From Idiomarina baltica OS145 (lineage in GTDB: Bacteria; Pseudomonadota; Gammaproteobacteria; Enterobacterales; Alteromonadaceae), in NCBI RefSeq assembly GCF_000152885.1, contig NZ_AAMX01000001.1:186001-250000 (forward strand): a DNA stretch of 64,000 nt, read 5' to 3'. A program made the translations under genes and the position numbers. The notes below the pieces were generated by a model. That model ran no database searches and had not been told where the DNA came from. It worked only from the letters and a program-made list of their open reading frames with translations. This document shows, in pieces, positions 679-45,133 of the stretch (position 1 is the first letter of the stretch; the number at the start of each line of letters is the position of its first letter).

Positions 679-679
679 T

Positions 680-2806: not shown

Positions 2807-3021
2807 TTCGATTCTTCCTTGAAATCAATTGCTCTACTCATTATCTCTTCTCGCATTTCCGATATTATTTTCGTAGCAGATGTAGATTCGTTTAAACTAG
2901 ACTCGATTAGATAAATTTTCTCGCAGAGGCTATTAAAAGCCTGTTGTTCACGGCCACAAGCGTTTAGGTCACTAACAGCTGTCTTAATCATCTCGTTTAT
3001 TTTTTTATGTGATATACTCAT
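2803..3021 (-). CDS. Small helical protein between helicase and ATPase
   Basis: A 72-residue, almost entirely helical and charged protein. It overlaps the helicase stop by 4 nt and the ATPase start by 4 nt, so all three genes are translationally coupled. No motif is recognised. In ABC three-component conflict systems a short 'middle component' sits next to the ABC ATPase, and this gene has the right size and position. That link is positional inference, not sequence identity. It could equally be a coiled-coil adaptor holding helicase and ATPase together. Confidence 0.7.
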   Translation of the reverse strand: MSISHKKINEMIKTAVSDLNACGREQQAFNSLCEKIYLIESSLNESTSATKIISEMREEIMSRAIDFKEESK

Positions 3022-5159
3022 AAAGCTCCCAATAACTCTAGAATCTTAGTTACGGCTTTTCCTCCACCATCTTTCGCCGTATAGTTAGAACTTAACTCTG
3101 AGAAGTAGCTTACACGCTTTAATTCACCCTTCAACAATGACGATAAATCCCCATCCACATTATCGCTCGATTTTTTAGGTGTGGGTAAAACGATGAAGTC
3201 GTGCAAATGCGCTATCGATTTCTGAGTACGTTCTGATTTCCTTAAAATCCTACCTAACCTCTGAATCCATTGCCTGTAAACAGTATTGCTCGCCAATAAA
3301 AAAGCGGTCTCTATCTGTGGAACATTAAACCCCTCATCAAGCACTCTTTTGGAAGTTAAAACGTCTAAATCACCAGTAGCAAATAACCTCAGAGTGTCTT
3401 TCAAAGTTTGAGAACTAGCTGTCTCCGCTTGAGTAACCTGATGAAACTTCACCCCTGCGTCAAGTAAAATGCTATTCACGGCCTCAAGCTGGTCGGGTTT
3501 CTTATCTGTACAGAATATTAACGCTCTTTTTATAGAGTAGTCCTTAGACTTCAATATTCGATGAAGCTCTGAAACTTTAGCGGAGCAGGACTCAATCAAT
3601 ACACGTCGCTTTCTGCATAGTGCTTCCCATCGTTTTCTATGTACGCTTTCACTGGGCTCCTCCTGAGCAAAAGAGAGTTTGTTTATTTCATAAGTCAACG
3701 CTTCAAACTCATCTTGCTCTTCAGCATTCAAGAATACTATGTGGGGATAATAATTGTAGGGTACTAAACATTTTCCTATTGCATCTTTTAATGAAAACTC
3801 GTAAACCACTTCACCAAAGTAACTAATTAAGAAATCAGTTCCTTCTTCATCAAATTGACGCACGTGAGTTGCAGATAAGCCCATGCGATAGTCAAACTTT
3901 TGTGTCAGTCCTCGTTGACTGGCCTCACTACCTAAATTGTGAACCTCATCAGCTATTATCATTAGAGCAGTTTTCCCACTCACACTATCTATGAGTTGAT
4001 TAAGGTTTCCTTTACCAATTAGATTGTGAGTAACAATTACTACTTCAGTGTCGCTAACATCCAGCCGAAGTCGGCGCAGAGCATTTTTAAAGCCTGACTT
4101 AATCTCTGAAAATGAAATTCCTGAGGTATTAAACGGAGTGATGTTAAAATCTCTAATATCTCGTTCCCACTGACTCATTAGTGTTTTAGTTGGGACTGCT
4201 ACAATAATCATAAGCTTTGAAACTTCAGGACTTTTCTGTAATCGCGAAGCAGCTACGAGAGATGTATAGGTTTTTCCACCACCTGTGGCAATCGAAAGGA
4301 TACCTTTGCTTGAGTTTTTCTGCCAGGCCCGGATAGCTTCTCCTTGGTGTTGGAAGTCGCCTGAATCAACTTTAACAAAGCTTGGAACTTGCAGCTGGGC
4401 GGGAGCCTTTTCGTAAGGTCGAAGTTCTTGTTCTGACATTTCTACAAGTACTGAGTCAATTTCTCTATCAGTAAGAGCTGTAGACTTTTTTCTTACAAAT
4501 TTGGCAATATCGTTAAATGTATCTTCATTTATTGTCAGTGTTTGAATATCCTGTTCGTCGCCCGACCATATACTTTCAAACTTTAAGCGTAGTTCTTGAC
4601 AAATTTCCGCTGACTCACTAGACATCCAACTACGGCTCAAAACCAATTGCTCGAAATTATTGAAAAGGCCGCCTTTAGTAGCGTTGCTTGAGCCGTGAAT
4701 GCATGCATCTTTCCCGTTGACAGAAAATAACCAGCACTTTGTATGAAAAATACCGTTTCGCTTTAATGCAATCTTAATATTGACACGCTGTTGATAAAGT
4801 AGATATGCAAGAGCCTCTTGACTTCTACTCTTTAGGTCTTCCGCGTTGACTTCCAGGTCCGGAAATAAAATATTAAAATAGCTCTGTCCTTTTTCATTCG
4901 CTTCGATTATTTTAGCGACGTCATCGGCCTCTAAATTGGGGCTTACAACAAACCTTAATTTACTTCTATGTTTGTTTTTCAAATACGTAGATATCGTGAC
5001 TGCTAGCTCGGATAGAAAGTTACTCGAAAAGTAACCAACCATACAGTCGATGACTGATGATTCAGCTGCTACAGGAAGGAAAAGTTCAGTATCTACTTTA
5101 ACTTCAGATGGGAAGTAGATTGCTTTTAACTCTGAGATTTCTTCTAATGTGCTATCCAT
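3018..5159 (-). CDS. PLD-family nuclease fused to SF2 helicase
   Basis: A 713-residue two-domain enzyme. Residues 1-220 form a phospholipase-D-type nuclease with one HKD-like half-site (HTKCWLF then GSSNATKGG and NNFE, about 138-170). Residues 260-690 form a superfamily 2 helicase: Walker A ATGGGKT (about 290), DEVH box (ADEVHNLG, about 400), motif III GLSATH, and a C-terminal RecA lobe ending with the QRLGRILR arginine-finger motif. This resembles type III restriction/RadD-like helicases with a PLD module at the front. It is the first gene of the four-gene leftward operon; its promoter should lie in 5160-5390. DNA cleavage coupled to translocation is the likely activity. I am sure of the domains, not of the system name. 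Confidence 0.88.
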   Translation of the reverse strand: MDSTLEEISELKAIYFPSEVKVDTELFLPVAAESSVIDCMVGYFSSNFLSELAVTISTYLKNKHRSKLRFVVSPNLEADDVAKIIEANEKGQSYFNILFPDLEVNAEDLKSRSQEALAYLLYQQRVNIKIALKRNGIFHTKCWLFSVNGKDACIHGSSNATKGGLFNNFEQLVLSRSWMSSESAEICQELRLKFESIWSGDEQDIQTLTINEDTFNDIAKFVRKKSTALTDREIDSVLVEMSEQELRPYEKAPAQLQVPSFVKVDSGDFQHQGEAIRAWQKNSSKGILSIATGGGKTYTSLVAASRLQKSPEVSKLMIIVAVPTKTLMSQWERDIRDFNITPFNTSGISFSEIKSGFKNALRRLRLDVSDTEVVIVTHNLIGKGNLNQLIDSVSGKTALMIIADEVHNLGSEASQRGLTQKFDYRMGLSATHVRQFDEEGTDFLISYFGEVVYEFSLKDAIGKCLVPYNYYPHIVFLNAEEQDEFEALTYEINKLSFAQEEPSESVHRKRWEALCRKRRVLIESCSAKVSELHRILKSKDYSIKRALIFCTDKKPDQLEAVNSILLDAGVKFHQVTQAETASSQTLKDTLRLFATGDLDVLTSKRVLDEGFNVPQIETAFLLASNTVYRQWIQRLGRILRKSERTQKSIAHLHDFIVLPTPKKSSDNVDGDLSSLLKGELKRVSYFSELSSNYTAKDGGGKAVTKILELLGAL

Positions 5160-5394: not shown

Positions 5395-5573
5395 TGTGGC
5401 ACAAAGTTGTCACAGATTTGTCACAGCCCTGATCCACAACAAAATTAACCACAAGAGCTAACGGTCGCGCCGAAAAAGTATCAAAGAGAGAGCTTAAGAA
5501 TAAATATGAAGAGAAGAAAATCGCTGCAGGCCAGGGAAATGGTCCGCCCGATAGGATTCGAACCTATGACCTC
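5395..5573. repeat. Left copy of tRNA-flank repeat (partner 44957-45133)
   Basis: This stretch aligns with 44957-45133 in the same orientation. Shared blocks include CACAGATTTGTCACAGCC, a GCTAACGGTC segment, and a common run of about 29 bases ending GGCCAGGGAAATGG, followed by a tRNA 3' half. It looks like the downstream spacer of a tandem tRNA-Arg unit. Its presence at both ends of the island suggests duplication of a tRNA-spacer unit during insertion or recombination. Confidence 0.75.
5540..5573 (-). pseudogene. tRNA 3'-half relic (T arm and acceptor)
   Basis: On the minus strand this gives a variable-loop remnant, a complete T arm (GGTTCGAATCC loop) and an acceptor 3' strand CGGGCGG followed by A and CCA. 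No D arm or anticodon arm is found to its right, so it is a truncated tRNA. It aligns with the 3' half of the intact tRNA-Arg at 45102-45178 (29 of 34 bases by eye), embedded in the same downstream repeat. Confidence 0.75.
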
Positions 5574-5647
5574 AGCAATTAAAAGAAGGCAATCTGGTCA
5601 AAGGAGCGATGGGAACATATTGTCGCGCAAAATGCGCGACCTACGAA

Positions 5648-5676
5648 TGGCGCACCCTATACCTTTGCCTCCGGAG
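5648..5676 (-). pseudogene. 3' end of a split tRNA-Arg(CCG), left island end
   Basis: On the minus strand this reads CTCCGGAGGCAAAGGT (anticodon-arm side), then AT, then AGGGTGC-G-CCA, the acceptor 3' strand with CCA. The T arm is missing. The acceptor strand AGGGTGC is exactly complementary to GCACCCT at the 5' end of the tRNA fragment at 45224-45271, so the two pieces look like one ancestral tRNA-Arg(CCG). The 16-bp block shared with 45224-45239 is the probable recombination core. The intervening 5577-5647 includes a small GC hairpin (GTCGCGC/GCGCGAC). Confidence 0.7.
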
Positions 5677-6930: not shown

Positions 6931-7473
6931 ATGGACAACAACAGACGACAAATGATTGACGTACCGCTCACGAGATTAATCATCCATCCGCGTGCACAAC
7001 CGGCTTACGAGTTTGAACTTGATTTGCAACACCAATGCATGCAACAGACTCAAGATTATCCATCAGACCAAGCCCTTCAGTTGGAATACCCCCAAGTCAT
7101 GCCAGACAACAGCAGTTATCAAGTAATCGCTGGTTGGTCTCAACTTCTGACTGCACGCTACGATATGAATAAGCTGCTGACAGTCATTTGCGTCCCAGAC
7201 ATCGAATCACCGGTAGTATCGAATACTGCCTGGCGATATGTTTTATCACGGATGCTAAACCAGGTGCATCATCCAACTTACTGCGCACAACTACGTAGAG
7301 CTCTGGAAAAAAGCAATCTCTCACATTCAGATATCGAAGAGCTAACAGGCGTATCCGCAAAAACAATTGGAGCTATCGCGCGCAAACTCTCTCGGACCAG
7401 TCTCAGCACGTCGAAGCGACAATTACAAAAACTCCAGAGCGAGCGTATCGAAAAAATGGGAGAGCAGTTATGA
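6931..7473 (+). CDS. ParB-like/HTH protein, first gene of recombinase trio
   Basis: A 180-residue protein preceded by GAGGT about 6 nt before the ATG. Residues 10-80 resemble a degenerate ParB/RepB N-terminal fold (VPLTRLIIHPRAQP, then YQVIAGWSQLLTAR). Residues 120-160 form a helix-turn-helix (SHSDIEELTGVSAKTIGAIA). It probably binds DNA at the element's ends or its own promoter. Its stop overlaps the start of the next recombinase gene by 4 nt (ATGA), so the two are translationally coupled. A small partner beside two tyrosine recombinases recalls gamma-mobile-trio islands; whether this is the named third member needs a profile search. Confidence 0.75.
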   Translation: MDNNRRQMIDVPLTRLIIHPRAQPAYEFELDLQHQCMQQTQDYPSDQALQLEYPQVMPDNSSYQVIAGWSQLLTARYDMNKLLTVICVPDIESPVVSNTAWRYVLSRMLNQVHHPTYCAQLRRALEKSNLSHSDIEELTGVSAKTIGAIARKLSRTSLSTSKRQLQKLQSERIEKMGEQL

Positions 7474-8843
7474 GTGGCAGAAAACAAAAGTATCAGGGTA
7501 AGCACCAGAAAAGGAATCAGAAACGTCCTCAGTCCTCCCCTTACCGGCTAACCAGATCAACGTTGTCCGAATTGTCTTCATTTCTTCTCAGTGACCCCGA
7601 CGATTTGACGCGAGGCTTGGCATTAGCCAAGTTAGCCACTGGACGCAATATGAGATCGCTTGTCGATGCGAGCTTGGACTTTGAGATTCTTAGCACAGGC
7701 GTTGGTAAACTATCCAATAGCTGGCGCTATGGAGTAGCTTCTTCACCAATATTTGATGAAGCATCAAAACTTGTGACCAAAGACGATAATTACATCCTAT
7801 TGCCGCCATGTGTCGCGAAACCTACCGCCCAAGCCCGCTCACAATCAATACCAATCGATATACTCGAGAGTAGAGTCGCTCGGCTACTCGCTGGGAAACG
7901 AGGTCCATCAGGACAGCTGATAACGCCCAATGCACTCCAGCGCGTCATTGATTTCGAATTCACTACGGTAAATATGACACGCTTTGAACGTGACTTTATC
8001 GCGGATAGAAAAATGAATGACAACATGCAAAATTTTTATGCAGCATTCTCTGCAAAAACGCTTCATAAACATCACACAGATTTCATGGCTTTATTCTTAC
8101 CAGAGGATGAAATCGAAGCATATAAACAGACGTCAATTCCTGACGACACACTGTTTGGTTCGAAAAAAGCCTTGTCATCTCACGGGGTTGAATATGTGTT
8201 TTCACAGCTTCAATCCGCGCTCAGGAATGCGTTGATTAAAGAGGATCGTATCGCAGCACATAACATTTACACAGCTTATGTTGTTAACTTGCTGCAATTT
8301 GCGACGATGCATCGCCCCGCTCCCGATGTATTTAGAACGATAGGTGCCTTTCTTGATGATTTTAATCAAGTGGAAATCGTCGATAAATCCGATAGCTCTG
8401 CACGACTAGTCCCTGTGTGCCAACGCGCTCGGCAGGTAATTCTTCATTACATCGATTATTTAAAGTGCTATCAAGAGCGTTTTAGATTTACTAACACCAA
8501 CAATTATCAGGCGATCGACGACATGCTATCTGGCCGCTCAAACCTCTTTCGCATCCAAACAGCATCGACTTTTTTACCCAACTTCGATCACTTACGTGGC
8601 TATCTTTCTGATGCGGTTTTCAGATCGATAAACTGGCATCGCCATACAATGGCAAGCCTACTCATCCAGTCAGACGTCGACCGGGATGTCCTTGCGGCCT
8701 TTATGGGTCACCGACAGGCACTGGACTCGCCAACAAAATCGAGCTCAACATTTCGTTACCAGCAATTGCTCGATATTAGTGAACGGGTTGATCACATCAT
8801 GGAAGCGCTGGCTCTACCGAAAAGCTCATTGATGAGCAAATAG
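7470..8843 (+). CDS. Tyrosine recombinase (457 aa), second gene of trio
   Basis: The N-terminus is short and basic. The last 100 residues carry the tyrosine recombinase end-box: a HRHTMASLL segment (the HxxR region), FMGH (GH/W box, about 415-418) and a Tyr in STFRYQQLL (about 430) as the candidate nucleophile. The catalytic domain is diverged and the first Arg box is hard to place, as in recombinases that work in pairs. It is coupled to the upstream ParB-like gene by a 4-nt overlap and followed 10 nt later by the 1056-residue integrase. This matches the composition expected of the GmtY recombinase of gamma-mobile-trio islands, but I did not confirm family membership. Confidence 0.8.
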   Translation: MSGRKQKYQGKHQKRNQKRPQSSPYRLTRSTLSELSSFLLSDPDDLTRGLALAKLATGRNMRSLVDASLDFEILSTGVGKLSNSWRYGVASSPIFDEASKLVTKDDNYILLPPCVAKPTAQARSQSIPIDILESRVARLLAGKRGPSGQLITPNALQRVIDFEFTTVNMTRFERDFIADRKMNDNMQNFYAAFSAKTLHKHHTDFMALFLPEDEIEAYKQTSIPDDTLFGSKKALSSHGVEYVFSQLQSALRNALIKEDRIAAHNIYTAYVVNLLQFATMHRPAPDVFRTIGAFLDDFNQVEIVDKSDSSARLVPVCQRARQVILHYIDYLKCYQERFRFTNTNNYQAIDDMLSGRSNLFRIQTASTFLPNFDHLRGYLSDAVFRSINWHRHTMASLLIQSDVDRDVLAAFMGHRQALDSPTKSSSTFRYQQLLDISERVDHIMEALALPKSSLMSK

Positions 8844-8853
8844 GGAGATAAAA

Positions 8854-11800
8854 ATGGACTTACTTCGAAAAGTTATCACCGAGCATGCGACACCGCAGAA
8901 GAGCAAAATTGAAAAAGCGAGTATCAACTGCGCTGACACGTTAATGCATCTGATATGCCGCGAGCCAATTGATACTCTCAACGATGCGCATAAAGAAATG
9001 GTATTTTCAACAATCTACGACTCCGTGCATGCTAAAAAGTCATTAAGCAGCAAGTTCAGACGTGCACTCATAGATGCAATTAACCAAAAACTTTATGGCC
9101 AACACTACTATTCAACGCCCCGCTTAAACGGCTTTGTTGATCCAAAAATCGTTAAAGCTAAGTCGTTACTCCACGGAGCAATAAATGAGGTTAATCTCCT
9201 AGTCTCGGTGCAAAAGTCGTTTAACAATAGTTATCCACTGTTTCTTGTCCTGTTTCACGCCGCGTTCGAAAGTGGTTTATGTTTCGAGGAAGCACTGGAT
9301 GCACTGCTAACGACAGTTACAACATCAAAAGTCGTGCTCAAAAAAATTGAAGGAAACTGGGTTATTCCTCTTATTTACTCACGTCGAGGTCATGAAACCA
9401 ACACAAAGGCAAATAGAAGGAAAGTCACTCAACGTAACTTTTATCCCGGCCCACTCACCCTGTTTGCAATATCCGGTTTTATAAAAAGTCGGGCAACCGC
9501 CTGCATAAGCGGAGACGCAACAACGCTGCTAAAAAATGAACTGTCTGCAATTGCCTCTCAACAAGCCATCAAAAAGCTTAATAATCGCACGTTCTTGCGT
9601 GCGGTTGCGCAGCTCGTCAGCGAGCAGCCCGGCTCAAATATGCCAAGTTTTCTACGGCATTTTGCAGGCGGAGACTTAAGTAGCGCCTCAACGTCCATCG
9701 AGTGCCTTCAGTGCATTAAAAGCCAAACTTTTCATAATACCATCGCGTCGCCGACCCAACCCAATCCAGTATCTATACCTAGGCAACCTGCTGGTGTGCT
9801 TAAAAAACGTGATCTTCCGGCTTATCATTCAGAGTTCAGCGAAGGTTTGCGAGAGTTATTCAAAGCCAGGAATGATCACCACCGCAGTGCCGCAGAGCGT
9901 AAAGCCTTCATTATTCGAAGGATTGATAGCTTCTATGAGTCGCGTAAGCGCACTATCAGCGACTCTGAGTTCATGCTCATTGATTGGCTGCGATATTGTT
10001 ATCGGGAGGGTAACTTAACCAAGTTTGCAACCGGGGCTCGTTACGTAAGCTCTGTTGCGACCATCTGGCTCGACGTTTGCCAACAAACGAGCGTTTTTGT
10101 GCTCGATGAAGATGAAATGACAGAGCTCTACGAGCAGTTAATGAACAAAAAGAGCCTCTCGGACTCACAATACAGCGAATCAATCATCGAGCTAATGCAC
10201 TTCTTAAATGAAGAGCACGATATTGCGTTGCCCCAACAACTTGAGCCAAGAGATAAACAAAAATCTGTTCATGTCCGCTCAAATATCCCCTCAGAAGTGC
10301 ACATCAAGCAACTGTTTACTGATATCGGCGAGCTTTACGCTAACCAATCATCTCACCTTCGCGAGTCAGTTATTGCGCTACTCATCCTATGCTCCAGGCT
10401 TAACCCTAGACCAAATGAAGTACTCAACCTAGAAATAAAGGATATTGACCTGCTCCTAAAAGGTCATTTGTTCGTAAGAACCAACCGCCACTTTAGAGAA
10501 AAAACATACTCCGCCAAACGACTGATTGAGCTTGATACTTTCTTACCACCTGATGAATCCAAGTTTATCCGCTGGTTTATAAATCGCCGAATGGAGCAAG
10601 CCGGGCGTTACCTAAGTGCAGATGGAAGAGTGAGATTCACGAACCCACACATGCTCATCTTTTCCAGACTGCCGCATAACAATGTCTTTCTCAACATGCG
10701 CGAAATCAGCCAGCATGTAACTCGACTGCTATCATCATATACGGGCGTTCATACCCCAATGTATCAACTGCGCCACTTCGCAATTTCTACCGCGGTATTG
10801 GTCTGTTTTGCGTCGGACGATACCGTACGCGCCTTAACGCCATATTCACCAGAGCAAGTAGCCGTTATCAGAGATTACTTTCAACTAAGCGACTCCCTAA
10901 ACGTGCTCTATAAGATATCAACCTGGGCCGGCCACCTTGAGCCAGGCATGACGTTATCAACCTACACGCACTTCACTGACTTATTGCTTTTCGAGTCCAT
11001 CATGCGTTCGCACACCACAACCAACATGTCTTCGGTAAGGAACCTTTCACGCATGCAGCCGGCGCGTATGAGCAAGCTTCTACCGGAGGGCGCAAACGCT
11101 GAAGCACTCAATAAAACAGAGCTGATGTCACTTGCTGATAGATTACTAAGCAAAGAGCGAGGCGGATGGGTAGTCAAACAGCACAAAGGGATTGAAAAAG
11201 GAGATATCGACATGGATAGTTTATTCACTCAAAAAACAGAGTTCGATGCTGAGCAAGTAAGCCTTGTGTTAGAGGCCTCCGACAAAGGTCGCTCTATTGA
11301 GCAAATTTGTGACCTTTACAACCTGGAACGCAAAATGGTGGAAGCACTCATAGATGCGGCTCGCGATACTAAAGAGCGCTATAAAACGAAGCATAGAAAG
11401 TTCAGACTGTACGCTGCTGAGACATCAAAGCTTCATGTACCGCTACCGAATTCCAATGATGACATCATGGCCGCAAATATAATCATCAATAAACTTATGC
11501 CGGCTGCGATGCACTATCTTGACAACCAGGTTAGAAAAGCAAGTCATATACTTTTAAGCGCTTCGACGCATAGCCACCGTTACGTTTCCTTCAATACAAA
11601 AGAAATAGACGATGCCATCAATCTCATCACAGCTTTAAAACCAGTCGTCCCCGCTTCACGCTTGTATCTTGAGATTCACGTCGACAACTCGATTTGCGGG
11701 ACTCCCGTTGAAAAATACCGGGATGATATTTTGAAAGTTGTAACAGCACATTGGAATGATGTTTTGAATGCTGTTGGTCACTTCGAGATAGTACTTAAAG

Positions 11801-12024
11801 ATGGCGGGAAACGTCAAAATTCTATGGGCGTTGCTCGCCTTTACTTCCTAGGCCATGATATCAACGAAAATAACGCTCAATACTTAAAGAGAAATAGCGA
11901 ACAATATGCCTCGAGCGCACTTCGGTATGCTTTTCACACGCTTGCGATCTATTCGGGGGCTCTGAGAAGGTATTACGACCCGGGATTTACATATGACCCG
12001 AATAATATCTATGAGCTCACTTAG
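8854..12024 (+). CDS. Large tyrosine integrase (1056 aa), third gene of trio
   Basis: GGGAGA lies just upstream of the ATG and the gene is 10 nt from the previous one. The central region has a complete tyrosine recombinase catalytic set: box I Arg in RLNPRPNEVLNLEIKDID (about 520-537), HxxR-type QLRHFAIST (about 640), WAGH (about 692) and Tyr in STYTHFTDLL (about 703). About 500 residues precede the domain and about 330 follow it, including a charged helical segment. Twice the usual integrase length, it fits the large integrase (GmtZ-like) of gamma-mobile-trio islands. It likely performs insertion and excision with the smaller recombinase. The integron cassettes begin directly downstream. Confidence 0.85.
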   Translation: MDLLRKVITEHATPQKSKIEKASINCADTLMHLICREPIDTLNDAHKEMVFSTIYDSVHAKKSLSSKFRRALIDAINQKLYGQHYYSTPRLNGFVDPKIVKAKSLLHGAINEVNLLVSVQKSFNNSYPLFLVLFHAAFESGLCFEEALDALLTTVTTSKVVLKKIEGNWVIPLIYSRRGHETNTKANRRKVTQRNFYPGPLTLFAISGFIKSRATACISGDATTLLKNELSAIASQQAIKKLNNRTFLRAVAQLVSEQPGSNMPSFLRHFAGGDLSSASTSIECLQCIKSQTFHNTIASPTQPNPVSIPRQPAGVLKKRDLPAYHSEFSEGLRELFKARNDHHRSAAERKAFIIRRIDSFYESRKRTISDSEFMLIDWLRYCYREGNLTKFATGARYVSSVATIWLDVCQQTSVFVLDEDEMTELYEQLMNKKSLSDSQYSESIIELMHFLNEEHDIALPQQLEPRDKQKSVHVRSNIPSEVHIKQLFTDIGELYANQSSHLRESVIALLILCSRLNPRPNEVLNLEIKDIDLLLKGHLFVRTNRHFREKTYSAKRLIELDTFLPPDESKFIRWFINRRMEQAGRYLSADGRVRFTNPHMLIFSRLPHNNVFLNMREISQHVTRLLSSYTGVHTPMYQLRHFAISTAVLVCFASDDTVRALTPYSPEQVAVIRDYFQLSDSLNVLYKISTWAGHLEPGMTLSTYTHFTDLLLFESIMRSHTTTNMSSVRNLSRMQPARMSKLLPEGANAEALNKTELMSLADRLLSKERGGWVVKQHKGIEKGDIDMDSLFTQKTEFDAEQVSLVLEASDKGRSIEQICDLYNLERKMVEALIDAARDTKERYKTKHRKFRLYAAETSKLHVPLPNSNDDIMAANIIINKLMPAAMHYLDNQVRKASHILLSASTHSHRYVSFNTKEIDDAINLITALKPVVPASRLYLEIHVDNSICGTPVEKYRDDILKVVTAHWNDVLNAVGHFEIVLKDGGKRQNSMGVARLYFLGHDINENNAQYLKRNSEQYASSALRYAFHTLAIYSGALRRYYDPGFTYDPNNIYELT

Positions 12025-12090
12025 ACCTTTCTTACAGAGGATAATGGTTGTCTCACACCAAACTACGATCTGCTTCTTACCAAGAGCGGA

Positions 12091-12194
12091 CGTTAACGCC
12101 TCAAACACCGGCTTGGTGAAGTTGGCGGCTTTTGTGCGTCTTTTTGCACAAAAGGTGACAGTTTTGCCATGTCCGAGTGCTTTGACTTATTAAG
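12091..12194 (-). other. attC-like site 1 (degenerate outer end)
   Basis: An imperfect palindrome with GTTAACGCC at one end and a TTATTAAG end instead of GTTRRRY at the other. The arms TCAAACACCGG and (reverse complement) TCAAAGCACTCGG pair with bulges, as attC sites do, around a central hairpin CTTTTGTGC/GCACAAAAG (12129-12154). It lies downstream of the first leftward cassette ORF and marks the end of the array next to the recombinase trio. Confidence 0.6.
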
Positions 12195-12267
12195 TGACAC
12201 TGATGTCAGCCTCGATTGTGGACGTTACAAGGACCACTGATGACGGAGGGAGCGGCACGCTAGGTGA

Positions 12268-12519
12268 CTACACCTGGCCCACCAAGATAACGCGCTCATT
12301 TTTATCCCAGGCCGCCACCATGTTGCCTTTGTTGCGGCGCTCTCTCAGTGCATCGCTGTAATAGCTATCGGGAAAAACCAGCATGTATTTCTCAGTTTTC
12401 GAGCCAATCCATAACTCAGAAGACTCGGAGGCACCACACAAGCCTGAGCACAGATGCAGCTCGGTTTCGCGAGATTCTCTGCTAAAACTGGCGATAATAG
12501 ATACTTGAATGGTGCTCAT
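12268..12519 (-). CDS. Integron cassette ORF 1, hypothetical (83 aa)
   Basis: A GTG start at 12528 is possible, but the ATG at 12519 (MSTIQVSII) is the simpler choice. The 83-residue product has two Cys near the middle (LCSGLCG) and a C-terminal stretch with aromatic residues (YMLVFPDSYYSD). No family is recognised. It sits between attC-like sites 1 and 2 with the site after its stop, the normal order of a gene cassette. No promoter or clear Shine-Dalgarno is visible, which is common for cassettes. Confidence 0.55.
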   Translation of the reverse strand: MSTIQVSIIASFSRESRETELHLCSGLCGASESSELWIGSKTEKYMLVFPDSYYSDALRERRNKGNMVAAWDKNERVILVGQV

Positions 12520-12526
12520 TAAATTC

Positions 12527-12610
12527 ACTTAACGCCCGCAGCACGCGCGGCTATGCAGTGAAGGCGAAGTCGCAACGGAAAAGCCGCCGCCGTGCCTGCA
12601 CTTGTTAGGT
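12527..12610 (-). other. attC site 2
   Basis: Ends ACTTAAC and GTTAGGT match the R'' and R' core boxes. The inner arms CGCAGCACG and GTGCCTGCAC pair with the extra-helical interruptions typical of attC, and a GC-rich stem lies between. The minus-strand reading ends GCGGGCGTTAAG, like Vibrio-type cassette sites. It is nearly the same sequence as attC site 5 (14142-14225), the pattern expected in one cassette array. Confidence 0.85.
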
Positions 12611-12613
12611 TGA

Positions 12614-12943
12614 CTATGACGGATAATATTGGCCATTTGATTTTCTTACATAGTTTGCTGGGTAGTATCGTCCGTCTGATTTCCTGACAAAGGCTGAAGG
12701 ATAATAATATCCATCAGATTTTCGCACCCAAGATGGAGGGTAATACTCTCCATCTGATTTTCTCATCCAACTAGGGGGGTAGTATTTTCCATTAGACTTT
12801 CTAACCCAGTCGCCAGGGTAATAGTTCCCATCCGACTTTCTAACAGAACTGCCTGCTAAAAATGGAAAAATCTCTGCCTGAACCTCTGGGAACGTCGCAG
12901 CCAATGATTGTATTTGTTCATTGAAGCCTGTAATCAAATTCAT
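12614..12943 (-). CDS. Cassette ORF 2: tandem RKSDGxYYP repeat protein
   Basis: A 109-residue protein. After a 33-residue N-terminal region come six tandem 13-residue units of the form (V/M)RKS(D/N)GxYYPxxW. The repeats show in the DNA as a 39-nt period (for example 12671, 12710, 12749, 12788, 12827) with synonymous differences, so the unit is kept at protein level. Each unit reads as a short beta hairpin with an aromatic YYP turn, which suggests a small beta-propeller or beta-roll, or a display of repeated binding sites. No signal peptide is seen. It lies between attC site 2 and attC-like site 3. I do not recognise a described family. Confidence 0.75.
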   Translation of the reverse strand: MNLITGFNEQIQSLAATFPEVQAEIFPFLAGSSVRKSDGNYYPGDWVRKSNGKYYPPSWMRKSDGEYYPPSWVRKSDGYYYPSAFVRKSDGRYYPANYVRKSNGQYYPS

Positions 12944-12969
12944 TACACATGCACCTTATTCATTATTAA

Positions 12970-13003
12970 ACCTAACGCCGTCGCTGTGCCTGGCTTGTTT
13001 ATG
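12970..13003 (-). other. attC-like site 3 (very short)
   Basis: ACCTAAC-GCC at one side and GGC-TTGTTTATGC at the other look like the two outer arms of an attC whose central stem has been lost. It lies between cassette ORFs 2 and 3, and the stop of ORF 3 overlaps it. It is called from position and ends only. Confidence 0.5.
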
Positions 13004-13400
13004 CATTTTTGCGTAGCCCTCTGGGCCACACTGTTTTAACTACACCAAAAAACCGACGATCTATCTCTATCGGACCAGAATGAGGAGAGTCCAATATGGC
13101 CAAAAAGATTATCTGACACGGGTAATCGTCATGTTGAAATGGCACGCTCTTCTTGCTCAGAAAGAACTCTATATAGTTCCGATCATTCTCCACTTCAAAC
13201 GGTGAATCGCAACTGGTGGTGAACTCAAAGTCATGCCTACCTATCGGCTCGGCCTCTATGCTCCAGCTTATATCTTTCAAATGACCTATGGGAAAGGGCC
13301 AGCTATCCTCGAACAGCACCACCGGATTAAAGTGCAAATTCATCGACTGGCGCCTATTTTCATGGGACGTCACCGTTGCTGTACTCAAATGGACTCTCAT
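12999..13400 (-). CDS. Integron cassette ORF 3, hypothetical (133 aa)
   Basis: A 133-residue protein rich in beta-type segments and acidic residues (HDFEFTTSCDSPFEVENDR), ending with WPRGLRKNA. Its start at 13400 has no strong ribosome site; Met 20 (MNLHFNPVVLF) is an alternative. No family is recognised. Flanked by attC-like sites 3 and 4, with the stop codon inside site 3. Confidence 0.55.
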   Translation of the reverse strand: MRVHLSTATVTSHENRRQSMNLHFNPVVLFEDSWPFPIGHLKDISWSIEAEPIGRHDFEFTTSCDSPFEVENDRNYIEFFLSKKSVPFQHDDYPCQIIFLAILDSPHSGPIEIDRRFFGVVKTVWPRGLRKNA

Positions 13401-13426
13401 TTGCTACTCATATTCGACCGTATAGT

Positions 13427-13498
13427 GCATAACGCCACACATCAGACGACTGAAAACCGCGCAGCGGTTTTTGGGTCGGCTGAATGTGATTGTTATAC
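13427..13498 (-). other. attC site 4
   Basis: Ends GCATAAC and GTTATAC are good core boxes. Inner arms (CACACATCAG with CTGAATGTG) pair with a bulge, and the middle forms a strong hairpin AAAACCGC/GCGGTTTT. At 72 bp it has normal attC length. The stop codon of cassette ORF 4 lies inside its core box. Confidence 0.85.
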
Positions 13499-14125
13499 CT
13501 TTTCATGACTCAGCTTTGACTTGAGGTATTTTTCAATTTCCTCGATCGCCCTAACAAGATCTTGTTTGTATTCATCGGGCTCCTCGCTCAAATTGTCGTA
13601 CATAATGTCGCGAGCTTTCTTATCTATGTTTCTTATGGCCTCTTTTGACGCTTCATCGGTATCGGGGTTTATGAGTTCAACGTAATGGCGAATTCGCGTA
13701 AATAATTCATGCTCGAGACCGAATACCCCTTTAAACAGTTCTTTAAGATCCGTGCCCCAGATGGCTTCCGCTTCAAGTAGGTCAGCATATAGCGTTGTTC
13801 TTTCAGCTTGAACTTTGTCCCATCTTGCTTGATAAGCCTTCGAAGTGCCGTAGAAACGTATTTGTTCGCGGGACATTGTTTTAGCTTCTTCCTCTGGCGG
13901 AGAAGGCATTTCGTACGCCCACATTGCAGGATGACGAACACCATTAATCGCGTCTCTGTATTTGAATACAGACACCAATATTCGGCGCGAAAGCTCGTAT
14001 TCAGATTGCCCCTTCAATTGGCGCTGCCAAGTACCTAGGCCTTTCACGGCCACAACCGCGCCAGTAATTGCAGCACCAGAAAGCACAAGCTCCTTTAGCA
14101 ATGTGACTATTTCAGTGCAGGTCAC
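13493..14125 (-). CDS. Cassette ORF 4: membrane-anchored helical protein
   Basis: A GTG start at 14125 is supported by AAAGGAG with a 7-nt spacer. The 210-residue product has one hydrophobic N-terminal segment (VLSGAAITGAVVAVKGLG, about 13-30), followed by a long charged helical domain, probably cytosolic. This is a common layout of small, poorly characterised bacterial proteins found in cassettes and defence islands. The strong ribosome site implies the cassette is meant to be translated. No catalytic motif is seen. Confidence 0.7.
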   Translation of the reverse strand: MTCTEIVTLLKELVLSGAAITGAVVAVKGLGTWQRQLKGQSEYELSRRILVSVFKYRDAINGVRHPAMWAYEMPSPPEEEAKTMSREQIRFYGTSKAYQARWDKVQAERTTLYADLLEAEAIWGTDLKELFKGVFGLEHELFTRIRHYVELINPDTDEASKEAIRNIDKKARDIMYDNLSEEPDEYKQDLVRAIEEIEKYLKSKLSHEKV

Positions 14126-14141
14126 CTGATTCTCCTTTTAG

Positions 14142-14225
14142 GTATAACGCCCGCAGCATGCGCGGCTTTGGAATGGAGGCGAAGCCGCAATGGAAAAGAC
14201 GTCGCCGTGCCTGCGATTGTTAGGG
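14142..14225 (-). other. attC site 5
   Basis: Ends GTATAAC and GTTAGGG with paired inner arms CGCAGCATG and CGTGCCTGCG. The sequence is close to attC site 2 through most of its length, including the GCGGC...GCCGC central stems. It follows the stop of cassette ORF 5 directly. Confidence 0.87.
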
Positions 14226-14753
14226 CTACCCACCGCTTTTTGACTTGATTAAGCTGTTCATGGAATTCGCCATACCCAGACCATTCATTAGGTGATAGTA
14301 GGACTTTTTTACTCGCTCATAATGCTCTGGAGTAAAGCTCATAGTAGTCGAAGGCAACCCCTTCTCGGCTACATAATTTCGTTGATTTTCATTCCATTCA
14401 CCATGAACGTATGCATTCCGGATATATTTACAGGCTAAATAATCATCGAAGCATTCCCGATCAGGATTTAACCCGCGAATTTCAAATGCCTTGTAAAGCC
14501 GTTCTAATCGCTCTTCATTGGAGCCGTTTTCGAAATATGACGCTATATCAAACATCATGGGTTCTGGGTTAGCCCATTTTTTTATGATCATCTCGATACT
14601 GCCAACCATCATGACTATCCACAAACGGCAAAAAGACGAGTACTTGATGCTATCGGGAACGTTGCTTTCAACAGGATGGTCATTTACTAACTTCTCGATC
14701 AGTTCCAGATAAATCTGGTCATCGGAGTATGCGTCAATGAACTCGTCTATCAT
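14226..14753 (-). CDS. Cassette ORF 5: helical HEPN-like protein
   Basis: A 175-residue, mostly helical protein. The segment YIRNAYVHGEW (about 123-133) contains R-x4-H (RNAYVH), the active-site spacing of HEPN ribonucleases, next to an acidic face. The rest (SSFCRLWIVMMVGSIEMIIKKW) looks like packed helices of the same fold. HEPN proteins are common toxins or defence effectors, so this may be an RNase. However, no antitoxin partner (for example MNT) is next to it and the motif alone is short. It ends exactly at attC site 5. Confidence 0.6.
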   Translation of the reverse strand: MIDEFIDAYSDDQIYLELIEKLVNDHPVESNVPDSIKYSSFCRLWIVMMVGSIEMIIKKWANPEPMMFDIASYFENGSNEERLERLYKAFEIRGLNPDRECFDDYLACKYIRNAYVHGEWNENQRNYVAEKGLPSTTMSFTPEHYERVKKSYYHLMNGLGMANSMNSLIKSKSGG

Positions 14754-14759
14754 TTGGAC

Positions 14760-15301
14760 TCCTTCGAATATTTTACTGCCCTAACCTTTGTATATTGTGC
14801 GTACACATTTAAAAACTCGTCCAATTGATAGTTTTCGACTCTTAACTTACTGATCAAGCAGGAACTCCTGACTTGAAAGGCTCCGAGTTAGCAAAGGCAA
14901 TGTGAGCATGCTCAGTTACATTCTAATGTGCGCACAATATCTAATTTTAATTTTTCGTTATGTCATTGACAGTAAACGACTTAAATACACAACACAATAA
15001 CAAAACGTACACTATTGCTGAGATAAGTGTGCCGTGTCTGGTTCGCGCCATCCAGACTCATTAATAACAGCGAGGCGAGTTACTCGTTGAATTAGGCAAA
15101 AAATCCGGAGGTCCGCTCCTCGCTCGCTGCGGATCTTTCCTACCCATAAATCGCATATCGTCAAAGGGTGACCTAGTATGCTCAAATAGTTTTTACTTGT
15201 TTGAAGGCCCGCTACAGTGCGACAATATGGAACGATTACGGACTACCACTGTATGAATTGAGGGAAAAAAACGGCGTTTTAGAGTCAATTTGATACGATG
15301 A
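14760..15301. other. Gene-free spacer within the cassette cluster
   Basis: About 540 bases with no credible gene. A weak attC-like pair (CCTAAT... and ...GTTATTAAT on the minus strand, 15058-15100) could be the eroded site of a lost cassette. A minus-strand frame at 15193-15384 only shadows the next gene. An AT-rich stretch at 14940-15010 could hold a promoter for cassette ORF 5. Confidence 0.4.
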
Positions 15302-15658
15302 TTATGTATCATTTTTGCAACCACTGTGATTACAAGTGACTTTTTCTGTGGATGCTGCCCAGGCTTCAGGGTGAGTTTGCACATTCACGCCACACCCAGT
15401 AGTTTTACCGTCTTTCGCAAGTTTGTGTACTATCCCTGTAGGCTTATGAATAACTGTTTTACACATTTCAGCTTCAAAGCCGGCACCCTTAAATTTTGCA
15501 ATCTTATCGATATTAGCGAAAGCCAGACCGATAGATCCAGCGAGAATAGCTAGCCCCATTTCTGCGGCCATGTTCATAAAGCCATATGTAGAGCTAATAC
15601 CTAAAAGCATTAGGTATGAAAATACTTTAAATATATTTTTGATACTAGACTCCTTCAA
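15302..15658 (-). CDS. Cassette ORF 6: two-helix membrane protein, Cys tail
   Basis: Two hydrophobic helices (VFSYLMLLGISSTYGF and GLAILAGSIGLAFANI) lead into FKGAGFEAEM, a linker seen in many small membrane proteins, then a soluble tail with a TGCG...W...VTCNHSGCKN Cys pattern. The open frame starts at a GTG (15682) inside attC-like site 6. A TTG at 15658 is usable, but the only Shine-Dalgarno (AAGGAG) sits 7 nt before an ATC codon at 15643, which suggests a mutated or non-standard start. The tail matches the separate 52-residue protein at 15860-16018. Confidence 0.6.
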   Translation of the reverse strand: MKESSIKNIFKVFSYLMLLGISSTYGFMNMAAEMGLAILAGSIGLAFANIDKIAKFKGAGFEAEMCKTVIHKPTGIVHKLAKDGKTTGCGVNVQTHPEAWAASTEKVTCNHSGCKNDT

Positions 15659-15659
15659 T

Positions 15660-15701
15660 GTATAACGCTTTGGAAAAAACACGCTTCCCGGCTTGTCAGG
15701 C
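15660..15701 (-). other. attC-like site 6 (degenerate)
   Basis: Ends GTATAAC-GC and GGC-TTGTCAGGC. The second is one base away from the usual GTTAGGC. It is only about 42 bp, so the central stem is short or lost. It marks the last recognisable cassette boundary. Just beyond, GAGTTTAGTCTACG (15704) recurs as GAGTTTTAGTCTACG at 15799, a short direct repeat. Confidence 0.45.
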
Positions 15702-15859
15702 CTGAGTTTAGTCTACGTACTTGTGGAACTCAATTCGTTCTGGATAGTCTCCGTTTTTGACAATTTGCAGACCTATTCCTTCCTTTAAAACTGGCGTCAC
15801 GTGAGTTTTAGTCTACGCTTTAATCAGCCAATATCGGCACACACGAAAAGGAACATTCT

Positions 15860-16018
15860 ATGGCTGTTAGACATACCCCCGAATCAGGAGAGAGCGTTGT
15901 TCACCAAGGCCAAAAAGGTGGGAAAACTGGATGCGGCGAAGACACTAACGTTAAACCATCGCATTGGACAAACACGACCGCACCGGTAACCTGCAAAAGA
16001 AATGGCTGCAAAAATTGA
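15860..16018 (+). CDS. Small Cys-motif protein (52 aa)
   Basis: Too short for many gene finders but convincing. AAAAGGA precedes the ATG by 7 nt, and the product ends GKTGCGEDTNVKPSHW...VTCKRNGCKN. The same pattern (TGCG, about 14 residues with a conserved P and W, then VTC-x3-GCKN) is the tail of the membrane protein at 15302-15658, and VTCKRNGCKN followed by a stop is repeated at 31297-31329. Three Cys and a conserved Trp suggest metal binding or a disulphide knot. The function is unknown. It converges with a pseudogene across a shared hairpin terminator. Confidence 0.65.
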   Translation: MAVRHTPESGESVVHQGQKGGKTGCGEDTNVKPSHWTNTTAPVTCKRNGCKN

Positions 16019-16029
16019 AGTGAATATTA

Positions 16030-16053
16030 AGGGCTAGTATAAACGCTAGCCCT
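16030..16053. terminator. Bidirectional hairpin, copy A
   Basis: AGGGCTAG/CTAGCCCT, an 8-bp stem, lies between the small Cys-motif gene and the convergent pseudogene. The same hairpin with a different loop is found in copy B at 31333-31355. Confidence 0.6.
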
Positions 16054-16091
16054 GTTATTGATAGTTTCGCTTAATGGGATTGATAGAGGTT

Positions 16092-16270
16092 TCAACTGTC
16101 CAGTGTCATACTTTCCGAAAACTCCTGATCTTTATCATCGTGCTTCGACAGATATTGAAAGTGCCAGATAATGTCCGTTGAGATTGTTCGAGATCCCGCA
16201 TACTTTCGGATGAAGTCCTCAGACTTTAACGGCCATTCATCTATGTTTGGCAAATATCGTCAGCAATAAG
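16092..16270 (-). pseudogene. Truncated copy of the gene at 31395-31925
   Basis: From its stop codon inward this is near-identical to the 3' end of the intact gene at 31395-31925. It then jumps from GATGAAGTC straight to CTCAGACTTT, a 132-bp (44-codon) deletion between two AAGTC words, and loses homology soon after. The front half of the gene is missing. It is a decayed paralogue left at the left end of the 16-31 kb block. Confidence 0.8.
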
Positions 16271-16610
16271 TCACGTGACAACTTCGTAGATCAAATCTAC
16301 GAGCATCACTTTCCCGATGACTTGGACAAATTACGCCGCGAGCAACTTCGCCGAGCGAGCCGATAAATACGCTGGCCCATATGGCGCGCGCCAGTGCGGT
16401 GAAGTAGGGAAAGATCTGTTCCGCCACTTCGATGGTGATGAACGAATTCTCTTCACTAGCCGTTCTAGCGACGGCATCGACACTTTCTACTTTGAGTAGT
16501 ATGCCGCTTATGGCATTGCAGCGCACTTCTGCGTTCGAAGGCACTTTCTTCAAAACCGTGCTGCCGGGGTTGTAAGGGCTTTTTTATGCGCCAATTATTA
16601 GCGGCACGGC
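16271..16610. other. Degenerate stretch without a supported gene
   Basis: Several short open frames overlap here on both strands (for example 16260-16553 minus and 16317-16499 plus), but none has a start signal or a recognisable product. A plus-strand run NFVDQIYEHHFPDDLDKLR, from about 16278, looks like a coding remnant. I read this as gene debris at an insertion junction. Confidence 0.4.
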
Positions 16611-17279
16611 TTAGAGCTTTCCGTTTCGTTCTCTACCATCAAATACGTTGCCAATGTCTTTTAAGTAGCGATTGACCATTGTCTGATATTGAGTCAACTC
16701 CAGATCATTGAAAAACGAATACTCTTCACTGGTAAAGTCAATATAAACGGACTTTAGCGGTTTGACATCTATAGTCACATTCAGCTGGGAAAGCTCCTTC
16801 CGTAACCCGCTAACAAAGCCACGGATTGCGCCATTTATAGCCAGAGGCAGCGATGACAATGCGCTGAATTCGTACGATTCTTCATAGAGGAATTGAGTGA
16901 TATGACACGATTTGTGCGACCTCAGCTTGTCCGCCAGTATTCTGTATATCTCAATGACAGAAGTTATTTGTCTGGAGACCTGTTCATTAATGGTGCGGGA
17001 TGGAATTGCTTCAATTGCACCAAACTTGAGAGCCCCCGGAAATAAGATGACGTCGTCAAAATAGCCGAACTCCAAAAAGGCTCTCTCAAGTTCATAATTC
17101 AGGCGCCAGTCATCTTCAGGATCACAGACACTCAGGTGTGGAGCTTCATTATTTCTTTCTTCAGTCACACTTGCCTCTGCGAAATGTAATTCCCAAACGG
17201 CGTCGTCCGAAGGTCGAATTGTTTTCACAAACTGCTTAGCTAACAAAGTGTCACTGTTGATCAGCAAATAGGTAGACAT
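16611..17279 (-). CDS. SDR-like protein without catalytic motifs
   Basis: A 222-residue protein with the layout of a short-chain dehydrogenase: a first strand STYLLINSDTLLAKQF, a middle strand FDDVILFPG, and a late helix ALSSLPLAINGAIRGFVSGLRKEL followed by NVTIDVKPL, which matches the end of the SDR fold. The TGxxxGxG cofactor loop and the YxxxK catalytic pair are absent, so it is probably not an ordinary oxidoreductase. It may be a binding or scaffold derivative. It lies downstream of the RND efflux operon on the same strand but 130 bp away, so it may be transcribed separately. Confidence 0.65.
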   Translation of the reverse strand: MSTYLLINSDTLLAKQFVKTIRPSDDAVWELHFAEASVTEERNNEAPHLSVCDPEDDWRLNYELERAFLEFGYFDDVILFPGALKFGAIEAIPSRTINEQVSRQITSVIEIYRILADKLRSHKSCHITQFLYEESYEFSALSSLPLAINGAIRGFVSGLRKELSQLNVTIDVKPLKSVYIDFTSEEYSFFNDLELTQYQTMVNRYLKDIGNVFDGRERNGKL

Positions 17280-17413
17280 AGTTGTTCACCAACATACTTG
17301 TTGTTTTCATTTAAAAAATGGGGTGAGCATCCATAAAACACTTTTACTGTCGAATCGCCTTCCTATGGATACTCCCCCATCTGCTTACTGCTAACCATAA
17401 GTTCAAATACGAA

Positions 17414-18796
17414 TTACCTTAACTGGATGCCGCCACCAAAGTTCCGGTAGATATCGACTAAGCGGACAAAGCTCTGTTCTTGCAGTTGAGCCAACTGGTC
17501 GCGACTGCGCAGCAGTTCACGTTCGGCATCGAGCAAATCCAGGAACTCGTTGCTACCCGCTTCATATCGCTGACGGGCAATTTCTACGGCCTTTTTACTG
17601 GCCTGCCACTGTTGCTCTGTATTAAGTTGCTGCTCGCGGCTCAGGTTGTAACTGTTAAGCGATAACTGCATTTCGTTAATGGCGTCAAATACCTGTTGCT
17701 CAAACTGAGCCAGCGCCATTTGCGCACTGGCTTCGGCCTGCCGAATGCGCGCTTTTACCGAACTTAAATCAGCAGCCTGCCAACTTAAACTTGGTGCCAC
17801 TGACCAGCTTTGAGTTTCACTACCCAGCGTTAATCCAGGCCCGGATAAAAATCCCAGAAAACCGCGTACCGACAAGTTCGGATATAAATCCGCTGTAGCC
17901 ACGCCGATATTTGCTGTACGGGCCGCTAATAATCGCTCGCTACTTGCCACGTCCGCCCGGTGGCGCAGATAGTTCTCACCCTCGACTACAGCCACCGGCC
18001 GCTTCAGCCCAGGCAGTTCCGGTTCAGCACTCAACTCCAACTGACCCGGCTCTAATGCCAGCAATGCCGACAAAGTCGCATCAACGGTTAGCAGTGCCTC
18101 TCGGTAAGCAGGCACTGACGCTTTCACCCGGTGCAATTGCACGTCAATTTGCGCTAACTCCAGTTCTGAGGCCATACCGACCTCTAATCTGGCCAGCACT
18201 ATGGCACGACTTTGCTGCAGGTTATCCAGGTTTTCTTCGGCAACCTTCAGGCGCAACTGTGCTCCACGGTATTCGCCGTAACTGGTTGCCACCTGACTGA
18301 TCAGCTGCACTTGCGCGTCGCGCCATAAAATGTCGGCTTGCTGCGCCTGCGCCTCTGCGGCCTCACTGGCACGACGTAACTTACCGAACAAATCCAGATC
18401 CCAGCTTAAGTTGGCACCGCTGCTGTACCCGCGGGTAATAACGTCATCATCGTCTGCCGACAGAGTATTGTTTTCACTCGCCTGATAACCTGTTTCCAGC
18501 GTCCCTTTCGGCCATGAATCGTTGTCGGCATCACGAAATACCGCATAAGCCCGATCGACATTCGCCCTGGCTTGCGCCAGGGTACGGTTCTCCTCCAGAG
18601 CACGTTCAACCAACTGGTTAAGCTCGGCGTCATCAAACGCCTGCCACCAGCTCAAAGCCTGCTCGGCCTGCTGATAGGGCTGGCTTAGGTTAATGCTTTC
18701 TACCTTCTCCGGCTTTTGGTAATCCGGTCCGGCAGAGCAGGCACTTAGCGACGCCACGAGCAGGGCCAGGGTTGATATCTTCGCTGTATTACGCAT
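17414..18796 (-). CDS. RND outer-membrane efflux lipoprotein (NodT/OprM)
   Basis: A 460-residue outer-membrane factor. It has a lipoprotein signal peptide with lipobox LSAC (Cys at about residue 20), then two repeated OEP halves of long helices and beta segments, as in OprM/CmeC. It forms the trimeric TolC-like channel of a drug efflux pump. Its start overlaps the end of the permease gene by 8 nt, so adaptor, permease and channel form one leftward operon. Length is normal and no damage is seen. Confidence 0.93.
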   Translation of the reverse strand: MRNTAKISTLALLVASLSACSAGPDYQKPEKVESINLSQPYQQAEQALSWWQAFDDAELNQLVERALEENRTLAQARANVDRAYAVFRDADNDSWPKGTLETGYQASENNTLSADDDDVITRGYSSGANLSWDLDLFGKLRRASEAAEAQAQQADILWRDAQVQLISQVATSYGEYRGAQLRLKVAEENLDNLQQSRAIVLARLEVGMASELELAQIDVQLHRVKASVPAYREALLTVDATLSALLALEPGQLELSAEPELPGLKRPVAVVEGENYLRHRADVASSERLLAARTANIGVATADLYPNLSVRGFLGFLSGPGLTLGSETQSWSVAPSLSWQAADLSSVKARIRQAEASAQMALAQFEQQVFDAINEMQLSLNSYNLSREQQLNTEQQWQASKKAVEIARQRYEAGSNEFLDLLDAERELLRSRDQLAQLQEQSFVRLVDIYRNFGGGIQLR

Positions 18797-38982: not shown

Positions 38983-39022
38983 AAGAAAGAGGCTTAAAAG
39001 TGTATTAGAGGGAATTGATAAT

Positions 39023-44956: not shown

Positions 44957-45133
44957 TGTGGCACAAATCTGTCACAGATTTGTCACAGCCCTGATCCACC
45001 GAAAAGTCAGTCACAACAGCTAACGGTCACGCCGAAAAAACAGCAAAGAGAAGAATTTAGAGTAGATACGAAAGGAAGAAAATCGCTGCAGGCCAGGGAA
45101 ATGGCGCGCCCGACAGGAGTCGAACCTGTGACC
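44957..45133. repeat. Right copy of tRNA-flank repeat (partner 5395-5573)
   Basis: Same order of blocks as at 5395-5573: the TCACAGATTTGTCACAGCC stretch, GCTAACGGTC, and the shared run ending GGCCAGGGAAATGG that leads into a tRNA 3' end. Here the tRNA is intact. The spacer is therefore the normal downstream region of this tRNA-Arg gene, duplicated at the far end of the island. Confidence 0.75.

Follow-up and report, generated by a model that had tools for sequence, protein, structure and literature searches.

Where do integron gene cassettes come from when they stand in an array with no integron integrase (IntI) beside it? The question is raised by a stretch of 64,000 nucleotides (nt) of Idiomarina baltica OS145 (contig NZ_AAMX01000001.1, positions 186,001 to 250,000; hereafter the window, whose own coordinates we use). 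From its letters alone, this DNA had been predicted to hold six leftward open reading frames (ORFs), each followed by an attC-like recombination site, inside a mobile island and directly behind a trio of recombinase genes. In this cluster we find an attI-type leader, four cassettes whose attC sites are supported, and an array end that is conserved. It is quite probably an integrase-less integron, served by an IntI in trans or, in the past, by that of earlier hosts. It is by definition a CALIN (cluster of attC sites lacking integron integrases); by anatomy it is an integron minus its integrase. Sequence comparison assigns it to a family of arrays, each headed by such a leader, that are dispersed in Idiomarina and in genera related to it; most of the genomes concerned have no IntI.

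Four attC Sites and Their Cassettes

Are the attC sites real? We searched for them with a covariance model (R1) built from 19 attC sites of arrays near intI genes in other genomes, with the sites of the window excluded. RNAalifold gave no structure on the MAFFT alignment of these sites, so the R and L box pairs of the model were entered by hand. Over 23 intI-linked loci R1 gave 210 matches at E ≤ 0.5, and from 150 of these the model was rebuilt as R2. In 104 kb of sequence (the window and 40 kb to its left; L006, L007) R1 finds four attC sites, all on the minus strand and all at E ≤ 1.3e-4, while the next-best match has an E-value of 0.017. R2 recovers the same four: site 1, the last of the array (12091-12195; 29.6 bits with R1), site 2 (12527-12610; 37.4 bits with R1), site 4 (13427-13498; 35.2 bits with R1) and site 5 (14142-14225; 27.0 bits with R1, 33.6 bits with R2). 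With filters off over 11000-17500, the predicted sites 3 (12970-13004; 8.7 bits, E 1.7) and 6 (15660-15701; 10.5 bits, E 0.67) find no support. The leftward cassette cluster is thus real, and the covariance search, one of the checks proposed with the original prediction, accepts four of its sites and leaves two below significance. Instead of six ORFs with an attC each there are four, those ending at 14226, 13493, 12614 and 12268.

The four sites lie within 2.2 kb. When their bottom strands are folded as single-stranded DNA, sites 1 (z -3.80) and 4 (z -5.81) stand out from shuffled sequences. Sites 2 and 5, predicted to be nearly identical, are indeed 86% alike over 80 nt. Seventeen plasmid records match the region, 15 of them through the attC type of these two sites (Pseudoalteromonas, Salinivibrio, Halomonas, Providencia and others), and the matching stretch scores as attC in all three plasmid records checked. 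The type of site 5 is found in arrays of Pseudoalteromonas, Salinivibrio and Providencia.

The cassettes are all on the minus strand. Cassette 1 (14148-14784) runs from the attI to the R' core of site 5 and carries an ORF of 175 amino acids (14226-14753). Cassette 2 (13433-14147), bounded by the cores of sites 5 and 4, carries one of 210 amino acids (13493-14125), and cassette 4 (12097-12532), bounded by the cores of sites 2 and 1, one of 86 amino acids (12268-12528). Cassette 3 (12533-13432; cores of sites 4 and 2) has two ORFs, 12999-13400 (133 amino acids) and 12614-12943 (109 amino acids), between which a decayed attC is possible at 12970-13004; the former either uses the attC of the latter or its own attC has decayed. 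The proteins of the four cassettes have no PADLOC or PHROG match. The product of cassette 1 also has no Pfam match, and that of cassette 2 has a single weak Pfam match below cut-off. The 109 amino acid product is built largely from near repeats of an RKSDGxYYP-like unit; its Pfam scores to Tudor_2 and DUF2865 were taken as an artefact of this repetitive sequence.

Upstream of the leader lies the remnant of an orphan cassette (15302-15668, minus strand; ORF 15302-15682), which starts at an R'-like core. Its DNA is 82% identical to that of a cassette which lies between attC sites on a Vibrio alginolyticus plasmid, and the match extends from the R' core GCGTTATAC to the stop codon, where the Vibrio attC starts. 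This ORF is outside the array described here and its own attC is gone.

An attI-Type Leader Heads the Array

What precedes cassette 1? A comparison with genome G011 (G numbers denote genomes, L numbers stretches of sequence) first revealed a shared non-coding segment there. It spans about 350 nt on the minus strand (14785-15138, the 5' end being approximate), has no intI, and ends at G/TT (G = 14785; the slash marks the junction). It lies inside the reported span, so the statement that no attI is present falls.

The segment is a dispersed repeat. A search with the window copy finds it, in part as partial matches, in 22 of 147 relatives, including all 19 Idiomarina genomes. A family-wide search with another copy, in which the two best candidates were scored per genome and some copies are partial, gives matches in 44 of 395 genomes, one of them (G680) a weak match in another genus. 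An alignment of 28 copies, as far as its display goes, covers about 345 nt ending in ...GCACAATATACAAATG/TTA. The copies stop at ACAAATG/TTA and then diverge into different cassettes, which is why we read this point as an attI junction. When 33 copies are anchored on this G, pairwise identity averages 0.63-0.88 across the nine bases to the left and 0.24-0.41 on the right, starting with the fifth base. These values include four visibly mis-anchored copies (L165 minus, L169 first, L172 at 13320, L182), and the GTT itself was set by the search pattern.

Do integrons with their own integrase have the same junction? Ten native intI loci were read out, and eight of them, from seven genomes, carry TA(T or C)ACAAATG/TTA. 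Counted from the first IntI codon in the match, the distance to the core is about 300-355 nt, or about 475 nt in L207, where the C-terminal part alone matched. Left out of this set were one of the IntI of G703 (the second), the two of G680, and G601 past the end of its contig. The remaining two of the ten loci (G015 L039, G703 L201) have what we take to be the attI1 of class 1 integrons. Their first cassettes differ: judged by eye, that of G015 codes for an MFS-like transporter and that of G703 for a dihydrofolate reductase.

The leader therefore looks like an attI that is filled with different cassettes in different copies. Might it instead be an ordinary regulatory element, an RNA or a short repeat, that precedes cassettes by chance? 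It is non-coding and dispersed, it has a hairpin-like motif at its 5' end, and some copies have no attC nearby. This explanation would nevertheless leave unexplained why conservation stops at G/TT in copies followed by unrelated sequence and why the leader core is the native attI core; moreover, an Rfam scan of the window gives cspA and tRNA only. We regard it as very improbable. No match to the leader was found in plasmid and phage records, and a 27-mer of the leader has no match in IMG/VR. A 19-mer of the attI end has four matches there that lack attC and any other similarity to the leader, and these were taken as chance.

Leaders, Arrays and Array Ends Are Linked

We examined the linkage between leaders and arrays in 38 copies of at least 180 nt, of which 30 had 2.5 kb fetched on both sides, counting attC matches of at least 20 bits. 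Downstream on the same strand, attC sites (46 in total) accompany 23 of the 30 copies. The corresponding numbers are none downstream on the opposite strand, two upstream on the same strand and one upstream on the opposite strand. Six matches below 20 bits were excluded (L167 18802, L175 8943, L176 742, L172 10827, L212 6559, L213 8665). No attC match was obtained in five further stretches (L161-L164, L166), each 18-20 kb long, in which the leader is not matched.

Many arrays also close, after the last attC, with a conserved end, GTTAACGTCCGCTnTTGGCAC. Allowing at most four mismatches and a distance of 7 kb, we find this motif downstream of 25 of 38 leaders on the same strand and of none on the opposite strand; upstream the counts are eight (same strand) and seven (opposite strand). 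Some of the 25 motifs are not directly behind a scored attC. In the window the end is GTTAACGTCCGCTCTTGGTAA (12077-12097, minus strand), the sole match in 222 kb of control sequence that includes the window. In five loci (L168, L170, L181, L203, L211) the end motif lies 40-57 nt upstream of the next leader, as if the units stood head to tail.

No Integron Integrase over the Cut-Off in the Genome

Could an integron elsewhere in the genome explain the array? The assembly (2.77 Mb) is 98.89% complete, and no protein in it reaches the TIGR02249 cut-off for IntI; the best hits, read by eye, are XerD, XerC and a third integrase. A tblastn search with five IntI sequences against 35 loci (562 kb) finds nothing in the window. 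The predicted absence of IntI therefore holds. Of the parts of a complete integron, the array appears to have the attI and lacks the intI gene, and no intI-bearing integron in the same genome accounts for it. What the genome does have is a second leader-headed array without IntI, on contig C7 (L177). The window leader is 77.9% identical to this copy, compared to 93.4% for a copy in G004.

Elsewhere in the 35 loci, the tblastn search picks up the native gene of G681 and, at 24-30% identity, a distant tyrosine recombinase match in L169 (11237-11728) and L215 (366-857). This match, a candidate for the mover of the unit, lies 1.5-2.1 kb beyond the array end at an insertion site that the two genomes share.

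IntI is rare among leader-bearing genomes. Only one of the 19 Idiomarina genomes has an IntI over the cut-off, apparently of class 1. We tested 26 leader genomes, namely G015 and 25 from outside the genus, and nine of them have one. Since G015 is counted in both sets, 35 of the 44 leader genomes have no IntI over the cut-off, and the cassettes seem to be exchanged by an enzyme from elsewhere. Because native IntI genes accompanied by the attI core of the leader do occur in related genera, we favor an IntI that is supplied in trans or that was active in earlier hosts. The enzyme would recombine attC with attI, so that cassettes would be inserted at the G/TT of the solo attI.

Identical Cassettes behind Different Leaders

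Has anything been exchanged at these sites? The clearest case comes from other genomes. The leader of G681 is identical to those of G721, G716 and G653 at 270 of 338 positions. Directly after G/TT, the first cassette of G681 (456 nt, with an attC-like end) is identical to the first cassette of G653 at 452 of 456 positions, and the next 1047 nt are identical throughout (1047/1047) to the first 1047 nt after the attI in G721 and G716. Between species, identity thus jumps from 80% to 99-100% exactly at the solo attI; further down, the arrays of G681, G721 and G716 diverge again. Conversely, G653 and G716 have nearly the same leader (334/340) and different first cassettes. We had considered the gain of one cassette on one platform as an explanation for G681, G721 and G716, and rejected it: as the G681 leader is just 80% like theirs, what these genomes share is the cassettes and not the leader, and the change-over falls at G/TT. 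At an orthologous site in G087 and G716, with flanks 92% and 99.7% identical, the leader-to-end units measure 945 and 4881 nt. Integron-type exchange at solo attI sites is the simplest reading of these data. We looked through the loci examined for a site from which a leader-headed unit is absent and found none.

These comparisons bear on a different explanation, namely that the array is a relic. It would then be a dead CALIN left from an old integron, whose end has decayed and whose intI is lost, and a mere passenger on the island. Several features fit a relic. IntI is absent, sites 3 and 6 fall below significance, the neighboring cassette (15302-15682) has lost its attC, and the homologous array of G011 is degenerate with a truncated leader. 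Decay, however, does not predict that the window and G004 leaders, so much alike, should head arrays that share no match over 150 nt, nor that the same cassettes should follow leaders of only 80% identity, nor that units at one orthologous site should differ so much in length. We therefore consider a relic unlikely. The evidence against it is of past exchange in the family, and the window array itself could now be inert.

The Neighboring Recombinases

The array directly follows a recombinase trio on the plus strand (6931-12024), consisting of ORFs 6931-7473, 7470-8843 (with a weak Phage_integrase match) and 8854-12024 (1056 amino acids). The original prediction offered two sources for the cassettes, the island recombinases and a helper integron. 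Did the trio capture or move them? The array abuts its end both in the window and in G011, where the trio is 58-61% identical; this shared adjacency reflects common ancestry.

We compared 17 trio-type loci, namely the window, G011, G071, G032 and 13 more with relatives of the trio or of its large recombinase. Three of them, the window, G011 and the distant relative G234, abut attC arrays. In the other 14, no attC match at E ≤ 1 was found in the fetched stretches, some of which are short. Matches to the large recombinase occur in 19 of 394 genomes of the order, the present one included; 13 of the 18 other genomes' loci were scanned for attC, and G234 alone was positive. A contig scan gave three loci, which are the non-window members of the query alignment, and no relative was found in viral contigs. 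In G234 (L225), an apparently broken set of the trio family abuts four attC matches, with no IntI within the 36 kb fetched.

The distribution of the trio speaks against such a role. The 457 amino acid recombinase has matches in four of 147 relatives, and just two of the 19 Idiomarina genomes have it, compared to all 19 for the leader. In addition, the middle gene of G234 is apparently split into ORFs of 334 and 113 amino acids, and the trio proteins have no match to TIGR02249 and only weak matches, below cut-off, to the XerA family. It is hardly likely that the trio supplied the cassettes, and of the two proposed sources the better supported is the helper, with its IntI working in trans or within a previous host. 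We also considered AGCGGACGTTAAC, conserved beside the trio in the window and in G011, as a recombination site of the trio; it was rejected, being the reverse of the general array end.

Points against an Integrase-Less Integron

Several observations weigh against our reading of the cluster as an integron that uses an IntI from elsewhere. Seven of the 30 leaders have no attC within 2.5 kb, and several leader copies in the genus are partial (115 nt in G003, for example). Sites 2 (z 0.28) and 5 (z -0.84) are no stabler than shuffled sequences as folded DNA, so that the proposed folding check bears out half of the sites. The leader may drive transcription of the cassettes; the promoter search of the window leader gave one promoter-like match, with 1.4 expected by chance. 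Beyond about 20 nt at the attI, the leader has no detectable similarity to native intI-attI regions, and common descent of the two kinds of attI is accordingly not supported. Recombination is deduced here from the comparison of sequences, and the evidence for cassette exchange is drawn from the solo attI sites of other genomes rather than from the window itself. Finally, the exchange may have been in cis in G681, one side of that comparison, where about 0.9 kb separates the solo leader from an open native intI.

One may go further and ask whether leader, cassettes and end move together. Idiomarina and its relatives might host mobile integrase-less units in which exchangeable cassettes lie between a solo attI leader and a conserved end. 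These would spread as units between loci and species and use the IntI of other integrons in the same cell. Such a unit would be a non-autonomous counterpart of the integron. We put this forward tentatively, as a possibility that we rather doubt.

Genomic Island Context

The predicted location within a mobile island is borne out. A repeat at 5395-5573 is 84% identical to 44957-45135, and the latter, which includes the 3' end of tRNA-Arg(CCG) (45102-45178), forms the right boundary (44957-45178). The two repeats bracket approximately 39.5 kb, within which the minus strand encodes a 394 amino acid phage-type tyrosine recombinase (33509-34693; Pfam Phage_integrase, E 9.2e-18). With direct repeats at a tRNA end and an integrase, this is a tRNA-integrated island. 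In G014 and G009, the left-flank peptidase gene is followed by other cargo and then by the tRNA-Arg region and a 511 amino acid gene (here 45488-47023). G011 has the same island backbone, with an integrase 90% identical to that of the window, and its degenerate array, at the same place, retains attC matches of 26.5 bits (E 0.001) and 17.2 bits (E 0.12). The window array was probably carried into place on the tRNA-Arg island.

Between the cassettes of G011 (L037/L038; L038 1045-2376), a group II intron reverse transcriptase lies beside an attC-like stretch. Group IIC-attC introns have been reported beside attC in such positions.

The island cargo includes a KfrA-like gene, an HD-domain gene and SIR2-HerA genes. 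These SIR2-HerA genes are a pair; together with a PD-T4-5/AbiD-like gene, also of the island, they are found at 37966-42255 and 241-5159. The left neighbor element (L006 11208-19922) carries an Ssp/Dnd-type set (SspC, PAPS reductase, aminotransferase-V, DndD-like ATPase, helicase). Two copies of one 176 amino acid gene, a remnant (16074-16247) and a full one (31395-31925), enclose some 15 kb in which RND efflux and SDR-like genes are found; this block looks inserted into the island, since G011 has both flanks joined without it. The 48-49 nt at 5613-5661 recur unchanged close to tRNA-Arg ends, twice in G014 and also in G009. The arrangement suggests that elements may be stacked at this tRNA-Arg.

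Comparison with Known Systems

How does the array compare with systems already described? The open-access literature searched contained no paper on an orphan attI. SGI1-related islands, some of them in Idiomarina, have been described, and neither attI nor CALIN appears in the relevant parts of that account (PMC9035990). The closest parallel to a recombinase set beside cassettes is a Providencia plasmid (NZ_CP096319; L088/L100), in which a gamma-mobile-trio stands beside an integron whose attC type is that of sites 2 and 5 of the window. An IntI is part of that integron, however, and the window trio differs in gene sizes and order. Among the NCBIfam matches of the window trio there is no model named for the gamma-mobile-trio; whether the library contains such models was not checked.

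With native intI-linked integrons (G044, G681, G538, G685, G716, G507, G589) the window shares the attI core ACAAATG/TTA and the attC arrays. In those integrons an intI, intact or damaged, lies a few hundred nt from the attI, whereas the solo leader has none and is otherwise dissimilar. The CALINs of Xanthomonas are, like the window array, arrays without IntI away from the native integron. They occupy secondary loci. According to the sections of PMC12444791 that treat them, a functional IntI is able to mobilize CALINs in trans; those sections mention no shared attI-type leader.

The general definition of a CALIN, in the passages of the IntegronFinder 2.0 paper on the subject (PMC9024848), is at least two attC sites with cassettes and no IntI nearby, and the window array has all of these. 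In one large survey reported in those passages, CALINs numbered 2961 and complete integrons 2760, and CALINs were proposed to be products of decay (PMC9024848). By the same passages, attI is detected for class 1 only, so platforms with a solo attI would be missed by that tool. The family to which the window array belongs adds an attI-type leader and a conserved end, repeated across genomes, neither of which the CALIN definition requires. If conserved attI sites do head arrays without IntI, some CALINs would be maintained docking platforms and the action of IntI in trans on attI would become directly testable, while leader and end together provide a sequence handle by which the movement of arrays can be traced.

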